Assembly: GCF_002259705.1 (NCBI RefSeq)
Contig: NZ_MWWT01000001.1
Span: forward strand, 186,001-250,000
Direction: 5' to 3'
Length of the DNA stretch: 64,000 nt
DNA from: Alloscardovia macacae
GTDB taxonomy: Bacteria > Actinomycetota > Actinomycetes > Actinomycetales > Bifidobacteriaceae
Positions 43,952 to 49,237 of this stretch are shown here, in pieces (positions within the stretch are counted from its first letter, which is position 1; each line of letters begins with the position of its first letter). The position numbers and the translations under genes are program-made. The notes beneath the pieces are model-generated. The model searched no databases, was not told the origin of the DNA, and was given only the letters and a program-made list of their open reading frames with translations.

Positions 43952-45604
43952 CTATTCTACTGGGGTAATGTACCTGTATTTTGCGTAGCGCCCGCGGGAT
44001 ACGGCTTCGAGCTTTCCATCGTCTACGAGTGAGCGGATAAGGCGATATGCTTTAGGACCATCCACATGGAGGAGTTCTATGACATCAGCTCGAGATATAT
44101 ACGTGCTCTGTTGCGCGAGATGAAGAATGAGCGCAGCGTAACGAGTATCATCTATGTTTTTCTGGAGCACATAGCCTATGCGCTTATCGTGTGTTCCATA
44201 AACACGAGATGAAAGCATGTACTCCTTATGCGGATTTCTGCCATATGCTTCGACGAGGCCACGGTCTACACAGAATTCCACGGTGTTCTTCACTGCAACG
44301 AGGGGAAGATGCGTCGCTTCTGCAAGGAACTGTGCGGAGGAACGTGGAGCGTCACGGAGGGCATTCAGTAGGAAGAGCGTGTGGAGAGGCAGTGGCCGTC
44401 CGAGTGCATTCTGCTCGTCTGCTACGAGCTTTGTCATTTGTGGATCTGGGGTACTTCTCGGTATAAAGAGGGATACGTGGGCACTTGTGGACTTGGTATA
44501 GTCTGGCAGGGAGCTTCCATAGATGAGAGAGCTCTCGAATATACGGTCTATGCCACGCCCCGTACGCTCAGCGAGGCCTATGCGTTTGAGCACGTCAGAC
44601 AGGAGAGGATTTCGCCCGTGAGGCTCTGCATCTAAGAGATTATCGAGCTGTATTCCTTCGATGAAGCCTCCTGGGTTTGCTATGGTCAGTCCATCATCGG
44701 TGAGAGCTATGCGTACGCGTCCCATCTTTGAGTAGTCGCGGTGACTGTACGCATTTACTATCGCTTCGCGTACGGCTCGTGGATGGAAGGCATATGCGGA
44801 CATTTGGAATAATCCTACTTCTACCTCTTGTTTCGTGTTCTGTACCTCCATATAGGAATTCACTTTTTCTATGGAGCTGAGCAGAGGGAGGGAAAAGTCA
44901 TCATTGACGGTGACATCCGTTCCTACGAGAACTTGGAAGGAGGTGCTATGCGTAGGAATATGCTGTGCAAGGGAAGCTTGTGTCCCGAGAAGGAGAATAC
45001 CGGTAACAGTAGGAATCAGCTCACCCTGAATATCGCGGACTAACCCGAGAGCCTTAAAGAGGTCGGTGTCAGGAAGCTCGAGGAGCGAGCGGTCTCCGTT
45101 ATACGAAAGAATGAGCGTCTTCAGATGGTCTATCTCGCTAGGGGAGAAGTCTGTTAGAGACGATTCGTACAGAGGCATAGAGGAGTAGTCTAAAGTACGC
45201 AGGTCAGATAACCTCGTGGCAAATTCAGATGGATACAGCGGGATATTTTCTGGAGTTCCATCTATCTTTAAGCGACGGTGTGTTACCTTTCCCGACAGAG
45301 TGGCCACTATACCTGAGGAAGACTTCGGCACGGATATGCGGAGTACGGGCTGTTCTGCCTCGATAATCTCCGTGCGTACTGCGACGGGTGGAATGGTGTT
45401 ATTCGCTATATATGCTGCCAGTGTAAAGGTGTTCTTATGACTAGGGTGAACTCCGGTTATGGAACCGTCATCTTCTATTCCTAAGTACAGGTCTCCACCT
45501 TCGGTATTTGCGAATGCGACGACGGCATCGAAGATGTCTGAATCTGGATAGCGCTTCACGTCGCTTTTAAACTCGACAGTGAGGTTTTCCTTATTCGGAA
45601 GCAT
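43952..45604 (-). CDS. AlbA_2/Schlafen-type DNA-binding protein with HATPase_c_4 domain
   Basis: 550 residues. The N-terminal AlbA_2 domain has NLTVEFKSDVKRYPDSDIFDAVVAFANTEGGDLYLGIEDDG, residues 8-48, the standard pattern. Near 285-370 a HATPase_c_4-like part reads HPRAVREAIVNAYSHRDYS, IANPGGFIEG and NPLLSDVLKRIGLAERTGRGIDRI. Two winged helices end the protein (ALRDAPRSSAQFLAEATHLPL; QQSTYISRADVIELLHVDGPKAYRLIRSLVDDGKL). Proteins of this type are usually regulators or associated with defence and toxin-antitoxin loci. The gene is preceded by a dense array of palindromic repeats (45626-45845) and then by an AbiEi-like gene on the same strand. Confidence 0.82.
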   Translation of the reverse strand: MLPNKENLTVEFKSDVKRYPDSDIFDAVVAFANTEGGDLYLGIEDDGSITGVHPSHKNTFTLAAYIANNTIPPVAVRTEIIEAEQPVLRISVPKSSSGIVATLSGKVTHRRLKIDGTPENIPLYPSEFATRLSDLRTLDYSSMPLYESSLTDFSPSEIDHLKTLILSYNGDRSLLELPDTDLFKALGLVRDIQGELIPTVTGILLLGTQASLAQHIPTHSTSFQVLVGTDVTVNDDFSLPLLSSIEKVNSYMEVQNTKQEVEVGLFQMSAYAFHPRAVREAIVNAYSHRDYSKMGRVRIALTDDGLTIANPGGFIEGIQLDNLLDAEPHGRNPLLSDVLKRIGLAERTGRGIDRIFESSLIYGSSLPDYTKSTSAHVSLFIPRSTPDPQMTKLVADEQNALGRPLPLHTLFLLNALRDAPRSSAQFLAEATHLPLVAVKNTVEFCVDRGLVEAYGRNPHKEYMLSSRVYGTHDKRIGYVLQKNIDDTRYAALILHLAQQSTYISRADVIELLHVDGPKAYRLIRSLVDDGKLEAVSRGRYAKYRYITPVE

Positions 45605-45625
45605 GACAGTCCCTTCTCGTAGTCG

Positions 45626-45845
45626 TTTTTTTAACGCACGCGTGTATGAGATATTCTTATTTTAACGCACGCGTGCGTTAAAAGTGTATTAAACGTGCGT
45701 TAAAAATGTGTATTAAAAGTTAAAATGGTGGAAAAGCCTTGAAGAATAAGGGATTTAATGGAGTAACATTTTTAACGCACGCGTGCGTTAAAAGCGTATT
45801 AAACGTGCGTTAGAGTCTTAAAAAGATGGTAAACGTGTGTTAAAA
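45626..45845. repeat. Array of palindromic repeats upstream of the AlbA-type gene
   Basis: A 24-bp perfect palindrome with the core TAACGCACGCGTGCGTTA occurs at 45660-45683 and 45770-45793. Each is the start of a 43-bp direct repeat (45660-45702; 45770-45812) that differs at one base and ends in another half-site, GTATTAAACGTGCGTTA. More half-sites lie near 45628 (TAACGCACGCGTGT) and 45830 (AAACGTGTGTTAAAAG). The elements fill the whole intergenic space between the AbiEi-like stop and the AlbA-type start. Confidence 0.9.
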
Positions 45846-45865
45846 GTGCTGAATCGATAGGTGAC

Positions 45866-46459
45866 TCATAGCAGCACCTCGAGGTAGTGGCGCAGAGCGT
45901 TCTGCACGCCGAGCTCTTTTCCCATCCGAGAGAGGAGTGGAATATTACGCTCAGGAAGGCGCATATACCGTTTAAAGGCTTCGGCTCTCGTGAAAGGGTC
46001 TGTGTGGTTTATAGGGCGAAGCACATCACAGAGGGTGCGTTCTTTACTATAGGCCTTCACTGTGTGGCCGGCAGGCGTGCGAACGTCACTGACTTCGAGA
46101 GAATACAGTCTCTCCACGAGAGCATGGCACTGGAGACCTTCCTGCTTGGCTGATGTCATGTTATAGGTGGCAGGGAAACTGACAGAGTACCGTGCAGGGG
46201 TGGTATCGGTCAGATCATGAAGGTAGAGAGCTGTCTCTAAAGAAAAAATGGCGCGTGAAAAGCGAGACTGGATAGTCAGAAAGTCATCATCCCACGTAGA
46301 CGGAAGACTGTACACTCCTCGAGAGGTACGTTCGAGCTTTCCTGAGTGGACGAGATAGCTGAGTGTGCCGCGAGATAGGCCAGCGCGTGTAATGGCTCGC
46401 GTGGTAATGATGCCATGATGAGCTTTCGTCAGCTGAAGAATTTTTTCTGTTTCTTTCAT
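45866..46459 (-). CDS. AbiEi-like type IV antitoxin / regulator, no toxin partner
   Basis: 197 residues from ATG 46459. The N-terminal winged helix AbiEi_4 type reads ILQLTKAHHGIITTRAITRAGLSRGTLSYLVHSGKLERTSRGVYSLPST in overall layout. The effector part has SRFSRAIFSLETALYLHDLTDTTP and YSVSFPAT, then VKAYSKERTLCDVLRP and a C-terminal helical bundle. In AbiE systems the antitoxin gene is followed by the nucleotidyltransferase toxin AbiEii; here the next gene is the AlbA/HATPase protein instead, separated by the repeat array. An inverted repeat in front (46473-46505) may be its own operator. Confidence 0.85.
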   Translation of the reverse strand: MKETEKILQLTKAHHGIITTRAITRAGLSRGTLSYLVHSGKLERTSRGVYSLPSTWDDDFLTIQSRFSRAIFSLETALYLHDLTDTTPARYSVSFPATYNMTSAKQEGLQCHALVERLYSLEVSDVRTPAGHTVKAYSKERTLCDVLRPINHTDPFTRAEAFKRYMRLPERNIPLLSRMGKELGVQNALRHYLEVLL

Positions 46460-46472
46460 GCTACCCCACTTC

Positions 46473-46505
46473 TCTGTATAACTTATATGCATAAAAGTAT
46501 ACAGA
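46473..46505. promoter_or_regulatory. Inverted repeat in front of the AbiEi-like gene
   Basis: TCTGTATA (46473-46480) and TATACAGA (46498-46505) form an 8-bp inverted repeat 14 bases upstream of the start codon, with an internal GCATAAAAG that recurs just after. AbiEi proteins are known to autorepress from inverted repeats; assignment is inference. Confidence 0.5.
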
Positions 46506-46563
46506 AATTAAGCATAAAAGTCAAGATTTACCCCAGTAGCCCACCCTCGCTAGACTAGAACGC

Positions 46564-48506: not shown

Positions 48507-48557
48507 ATTATTTTAGGTAATTTTCACACGTAGCGTGTGAAAATTACCTAAAATAAT
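48507..48557. terminator. Perfect 24-bp hairpin after the MFS gene
   Basis: The arms (starting ATTATTTTAGGTAATTTT) are perfectly complementary with a three-base loop TAG. It stops only 17 bases before the start of the 48575 gene, so it may also shape that gene's leader. Confidence 0.75.
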
Positions 48558-48574: not shown

Positions 48575-49237
48575 ATGAAGACGACGAAGTCTTACCGTGC
48601 TGTGGCTATGACGCTCTGTGCGGTTTTAATGTTCATTATAGTTCCGTTACATCAAGCGAAAGCTGAAACGGTGTCGGCTATGAGTGGGCTAATCTCATTC
48701 GTTAACTCGTCTATAGATACGTCGAAAGGGCGAATCGAGGTAACTCGTCATCAGATAGAAGAGTACGTTTTCGCACACAAAGAGGGGCTTCTTGCGGAGA
48801 GTAATCAGAGTAATCTCACTGTGTCTTCTCTTACGGAAAGTATCTATAGCTTAGTACAGAGTGCTAATGCAGATGCGTCGGCAGGCAAGAGCGTTATTAT
48901 GCCTGACGGACGTACAGTATCGTTCCCTCGTGATTTTTCTACTCGGGGTAATGATATTAAAGAAGAATTCTTCTGGTGGGGTGTACGGCGCACATATCTG
49001 ACCGATGCTGCTGCTCTTGCTTATGTGGCTGAACTACGGAGAGCTCGTAACGCAAGCGAAGTTATTGAATCAATTACGAGGTATATTCATCCTGCGGCTC
49101 ATGTACTGGCAAAGTTGAATACATGGTATGCGAAGACTTTAGGTGACAGTATCGAGTGGGCTGCTAAGCAACCTGGTAATGGTGTTGTTGTAGAAATGAC
49201 ATATGTATTGACATATACCGCTGTTCCAAGGAAGTAA
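48575..49237 (+). CDS. Secreted protein of unknown function
   Basis: 220 residues. A signal peptide is clear (KTTKSYRAVAMTLCAVLMFIIVPLHQAKA, cleavage after AKA, about residue 30). The mature protein is polar and mainly helical: ISFVNSSIDTSKGRIEVTRH, then EFFWWGVRRTYLTDAAALAY near residue 130-150, and a C-terminus that turns hydrophobic (VVVEMTYVLTYTAV). No cysteine in the mature part. Not recognised. AGAAGG precedes the start. Its codon use is less GC-rich than neighbours. It forms a pair with a tiny membrane protein four bases downstream, as at 11703-12562. Confidence 0.65.
   Translation: MKTTKSYRAVAMTLCAVLMFIIVPLHQAKAETVSAMSGLISFVNSSIDTSKGRIEVTRHQIEEYVFAHKEGLLAESNQSNLTVSSLTESIYSLVQSANADASAGKSVIMPDGRTVSFPRDFSTRGNDIKEEFFWWGVRRTYLTDAAALAYVAELRRARNASEVIESITRYIHPAAHVLAKLNTWYAKTLGDSIEWAAKQPGNGVVVEMTYVLTYTAVPRK

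Follow-up and report, generated by a model that had tools for sequence, protein, structure and literature searches.

The window analysed here is a stretch of 64,000 nucleotides from the Alloscardovia macacae genome, in which two minus-strand genes, an AbiEi-like gene and an albA-type gene, are separated by a dense array of palindromes and half-sites, so that the order is AbiEi, array, albA. All three lie within an insert between a DtxR-type gene and an HD-domain gene. The features are as follows (a dot marks features without a strand).

43953–46555, strand., insert between the DtxR-type and HD-domain genes (approximate extent)
43952–45604, strand −, albA-type gene, 550 aa (Pfam, AlphaFold model, fold match to 3lmm and SLFN13)
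45626–45847, strand., palindrome and half-site array between AbiEi and albA (from the sequence)
45629–45652, strand., proximal imperfect dyad, centre 45640.5, −36.5 from the ATG, next dyad 31 bp off
45659–45688, strand −, weak promoter-like match TACACT-18-TAAAAT spanning palindrome 1 (8/12 positions, below the scan threshold; a candidate only)
45660–45683, strand., perfect 24-bp palindrome 1, centre −67.5 from the ATG
45694–45705, strand −, exact half-site, 22 bp from palindrome 1
45770–45793, strand., perfect 24-bp palindrome 2, within the second copy of a 43-bp repeat
45804–45815, strand −, half-site with 2 mismatches, 22 bp from palindrome 2
45834–45845, strand −, half-site with 1 mismatch
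45866–46492, strand −, AbiEi-like gene without AbiEii
46496–46524, strand −, promoter-like site of the AbiEi gene, TTGACT-17-TATACT, adjoined by a different imperfect inverted repeat

Both perfect palindromes read TTTTAACGCACGCGTGCGTTAAAA, and each is held within one copy of the 43-bp direct repeat, the copies of which are 98% identical and 110 bp apart. The half-site at 45629–45640 is an exact match as well, and the dyad centres at 45640.5, 45671.5, 45693.5, 45781.5, 45803.5 and 45833.5 follow one another in steps of 31, 22, 88, 22 and 30 bp. The best gene-proximal dyad stands well above dinucleotide shuffles (z = 7.2). Furthermore, with up to three mismatches allowed, the 20-bp palindrome core occurs only at these two sites in the 1.89-Mb assembly, and the 10-bp half-site has six copies in the array and one elsewhere. 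The palindromes, direct repeats and half-sites had been recognized in the initial annotation and are borne out at 45629–45845; the interval given for them there, 45604–46505, is mostly the AbiEi gene, although their position upstream of albA holds for the array itself at about 45626–45847. A search for the repeat elsewhere in the genome, proposed in the same annotation, finds the palindrome confined to the array and excludes a generic scattered repeat. The suggestion that these sites are iterons is unlikely, as no replication gene is involved and the dyads of homologs sit on the albA-type gene's own promoter.

The albA-type protein contains an SLFN_AlbA_2 domain (residues 6–111; 59.9 bits, Pfam cut-off 25.3) and a HATPase_c_4 domain (residues 296–373; 58.7 bits, cut-off 26), with no recombinase or transposase domain among its Pfam matches. 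An AlphaFold model built from 52 sequences (pLDDT 87), which superseded a poor six-sequence version (pLDDT 52), adds two C-terminal winged-helix segments at about 388–464 and 486–545. By sequence profile and by fold, the best match is 3lmm, a structure of unknown function (DIP2311 of Corynebacterium diphtheriae) that covers the HATPase domain and the winged helices, although identity is about 18–20% and the Schlafen-type E..E motif is not aligned there. The AlbA_2 part matches Schlafen N domains in both profile and model. Specifically, E6, E11 and E44 are invariant across 52 homologs; in the alignment with the SLFN chain, E6 and E11 fall on its E....E and E44 on its D, so that the third site holds E instead of D. 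The catalytic triad of SLFN13 consists of E205, E210 and D248 (PMC5862951), and the alignment thus gives the albA-type protein a carboxylate triad of the Schlafen type. By analogy, its N domain is probably a growth-arresting RNase of the tRNA-cutting type.

It is informative to examine the two genes in light of how they may have reached this site. The DtxR-type and HD-domain genes are adjacent in all four congeners, and the window has 2.6 kb between them, with a G+C content below that of the flanking genes. The AlbA protein of the window is about 64% identical to homologs from Lachnospiraceae and at most 49% identical to those within its own family, and it falls inside a mainly Bacillota clade (tree support 99/98). 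The insertion, the lower G+C, the closer Lachnospiraceae homologs and the Bacillota clade together make horizontal arrival of the window albA gene likely. AlbA homologs are patchily spread over phyla; a search for close relatives on plasmids gave no match at E ≤ 1e-60, and phage matches were distant (24–29% identity), with none confirmed in viral contigs by a pattern scan. The two ends of the insert (43957–43968 and 46528–46539) carry a perfect 12-bp inverted repeat, CTACTGGGGTAA / TTACCCCAGTAG, with its left copy at the 3′ end of the AlbA gene; these may be terminal repeats or a chance occurrence. Outside the insert, a long near-perfect inverted repeat, ATTTTAGGTAATTTTCACACG / CGTGTGAAAATTACCTAAAAT, is found at about 48510–48557, between an MFS gene and the gene at 48575.

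The AbiEi-like gene has no AbiEii gene beside it in the window, where an AbiE toxin–antitoxin system would carry one, and PF08843 has no match in the assembly (about 95% complete), in agreement with the earlier description of AbiEi without its usual toxin. An ATG shares bases with its stop codon (ATGA) and opens a frame that runs for 9 codons; in several AbiEi relatives the corresponding ATGA leads into a toxin gene of about 280 codons. This overlap with an early-closing frame suggests a remnant of an AbiEi–AbiEii pair, and the gene looks like a toxin-less relic within the same insert as albA. Another AbiEi homolog (L066, in genome G101) also has an overlapping AbiEii frame that closes early, after 43 codons.

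The array was compared across 56 non-redundant AlbA loci, the window and 55 others from several phyla, the homologs being a non-exhaustive sample obtained with sequence patterns and with draws at family, genus or phylum level. An upstream dyad score of at least 8 was reached by 34 of the 56 family loci versus 7 of 157 neighbouring genes, and the two sets of scores differ strongly for homologs that are not independent of one another (Mann–Whitney p = 2e-16). In most of the 55 other loci, dyads lie around positions −32 and −63 relative to the start codon, in many cases with a 31-bp spacing; the best dyad pair lies above the 95th percentile of shuffles in 37 of the 55, and the best related pair is spaced 30–32 bp in 18, compared with 8% in shuffles. 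One clade of the window's own family favours a spacing of about 21 bp, and in about ten homologs no upstream dyad stands out clearly. Many Bacillota loci have the proximal dyad occupying the spacer between −35 and −10 of a promoter of the TTGACT-17-TAAAAT type. The operator word is clade-specific between lineages, yet its copies agree inside one locus, and in three other genomes it is present only beside AlbA genes. Operator similarity has a partial Mantel correlation of 0.24 with the AlbA domain and of 0.13 and 0.10 with the recognition helices, so that the AlbA domain ranks highest and the test does not favour the winged helices as the part that reads the operator. The flanks of the AlbA homologs contain neither a conserved neighbour gene nor AbiEi. 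What recurs across the homologs is a conserved cognate operator on the gene's own promoter, the arrangement expected of autoregulation.

In many homologs the operator word also recurs directly behind the stop codon, some copies lying about 10 bases behind it, and the front and rear words are alike and found in direct and inverted orientation. Direct repeats bracket the gene over 78 bp at 99% identity in L037, where the rear copy takes in the whole promoter region, over 70 bp in L049 and L051, and over 66 bp in L134. Since related genes in many bacteria have matching arrays in front and often behind, the array appears to travel with the gene. The albA gene of the window has two array copies upstream and none downstream because its 3′ end abuts native sequence. 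One occupied site could be set against an empty one: G117 (locus L049) reads array–gene–array, and G115 (L106), which is not among the genomes with an AlbA match, has a single array between the flanks. The left flanks are 99.5% identical over 1,430 bp, array included, the right flanks 94% over 373 bp; the shared array measures 77 bp, and one unit of 1,758 bp makes up the difference. In this one pair, then, the sites differ by exactly one array-bounded unit, as would be expected of a mobile cassette; no such difference is seen for the window copy. Here the gene and its array act together as a 1.76-kb unit that is acquired or lost where arrays lie. The event may have been a loss by homologous recombination or a gain at a pre-existing array.

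Several further observations concern the surroundings of AlbA genes. In L021, 51-bp direct repeats, 183 bases before and 78 bases after the gene, look like a tRNA 3′ end with its terminator and resemble attachment-site duplications. Other AlbA genes are near tRNA or tmRNA genes or a ppc 3′ end (L012, L016, L047 and L094; ppc 3′ flank in G056, G094 and G078), as if these ends were insertion hot spots. Behind the AlbA gene of L049 lies a duplicated piece resembling a ppc 3′ end, with the full ppc about 10 kb away, which suggests a larger island in between. Unrelated palindromic arrays, for example TGGTGAAGTCCGGTGGACTTCACCA, occur behind ppc in several related genomes (L112, L113, L114, L122 and L132).

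Judging from sequence comparison, the array is quite likely the operator that lets a Schlafen-like gene, itself moving horizontally, silence its own promoter. We assign it to the AlbA gene alone because AlbA homologs carry arrays without AbiEi beside them. The AlbA_2/HATPase/winged-helix protein, as a dimer or larger oligomer, would bind the palindromes, with the C-terminal winged helices as the most likely contact, fill sites two or three helical turns apart and thereby cover its own promoter, a spacing that would fit cooperative binding on one face of the DNA. Production of the Schlafen-like N domain would thus stay low until repression is lifted by a signal, for which the HATPase domain may be the sensor. 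Gene and array would together form a small, self-regulating, horizontally moving unit; the gene with one array may be gained or lost at arrays, consistent with the many relatives that keep a second array just behind the gene. The cooperative operator proposed in the initial annotation is well supported as a phased array by the dyads of the homologs and their spacing, although as an operator of the AlbA/HATPase gene alone and not one shared with AbiEi.

Known systems offer partial parallels. TrlG, from the temperature restriction locus of Photorhabdus, causes growth arrest at raised temperature, is patchily distributed among bacteria and shares the Alba_2 and HATPase_c_4 core domains with the window protein; it differs in belonging to an operon of three genes, with trlR, a small gene of its own, as the putative regulator, and inverted repeats go unmentioned (PMC7554251). 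Schlafen-HATPase-winged-helix proteins with the same domain order as the window protein (Schlafen/AlbA_2, HATPase, winged helix) are listed as backup effectors in BREX loci, in passages that describe no operators (PMC12839542), whereas the window gene stands alone with no BREX neighbour seen. It is on the strength of TrlG growth arrest and of these BREX-locus proteins that we propose a self-repressed, growth-arresting RNase, a model in which binding, repression, nuclease activity, toxicity and signal are all predictions.

Other readings of the array deserve consideration. One, raised in the initial annotation as a two-gene toxin–antitoxin or defence unit, is that the AbiEi-like protein, as antitoxin to the AlbA gene, occupies the array and keeps that gene under control. 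The genes are adjacent and inside the same insert, and in the AbiE type IV toxin–antitoxin system AbiEi regulates its own promoter by binding inverted repeats there (PMC7319586, PMC3985639); however, the window genome lacks AbiEii, the window array lies behind and not before the AbiEi gene, the arrays of AlbA homologs occur without AbiEi, and the AbiEi gene is served by a separate promoter-like site beside another repeat. With the ATGA overlap pointing to a lost AbiEii partner, and no array-like element among the best upstream dyads of AbiEi relatives, we regard such a pair as very improbable, and the two-gene unit is not upheld. Even less credible is the idea that the palindromes act as RNA hairpins, in a terminator or attenuator. 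Perfect palindromes can fold, and the copies just behind stop codons would be suitably placed, but a high A+T content marks several words (TTCTTACATGTAAGAA), the copies before and behind the gene match in sequence and not in fold alone, and an Rfam search gave no match; in many Bacillota homologs, moreover, transcription would not include the proximal dyad, which is placed between −35 and −10.

The copies behind the gene invite two further explanations. The more plausible of them, which we would still hold only tentatively, is that through downstream copies the protein loops or blocks the DNA surrounding its gene, or regulates the gene that follows, with mobility secondary. The recurrence of the same words before and after the gene in either orientation, and the inclusion of a whole promoter region in the L037 copy, would fit; against this, the genes that follow show no conservation and in several loci are convergent, and the window has no downstream copy. 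Somewhat less probable is that the arrays mark off a single-gene mobile cassette and are acted on by the encoded protein itself in excision or integration, besides regulation. Direct array repeats on both sides of the gene, the 1,758-bp difference between an array–gene–array site and the single-array site of a close relative, the patchy distribution across phyla, the loci beside tRNA or tmRNA genes and the lack of conserved neighbours all speak for it. However, the protein has no recombinase or transposase domain, 77-bp direct repeats permit RecA-dependent loss, no array follows the gene in the window, and the occupied/empty comparison is a single pair. RAYT genes are single genes bracketed by matched REP palindromes. 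The AlbA loci likewise have one gene flanked by palindromes matched to it, but they have no HUH domain, and their palindromes stay with the gene instead of being dispersed genome-wide. We give a similarly low likelihood to a RAYT/REP-like pairing built on a Schlafen-like protein, in which one cognate array would be both operator and cassette boundary and protein and array would co-diversify by lineage.

Bacterial Schlafen-like ATPase proteins are widespread and have been linked to phage defence and growth arrest, and the papers found do not say how they stay silent; nor did our literature search find a report on operators of the SLFN_AlbA_2/HATPase protein family. Self-repression through a conserved, clade-specific operator over the gene's own promoter would provide a testable control switch, and the arrays offer ready-made predicted binding sites for finding the domain that reads them and the signal. 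If the arrays also bound a mobile unit, this would help to explain the spread of single genes across phyla without a transposase. One genome (G675) contains two AlbA paralogs (L092 and L094) with operator words of the AACTC type and the AACACACG type, a natural test of specificity.
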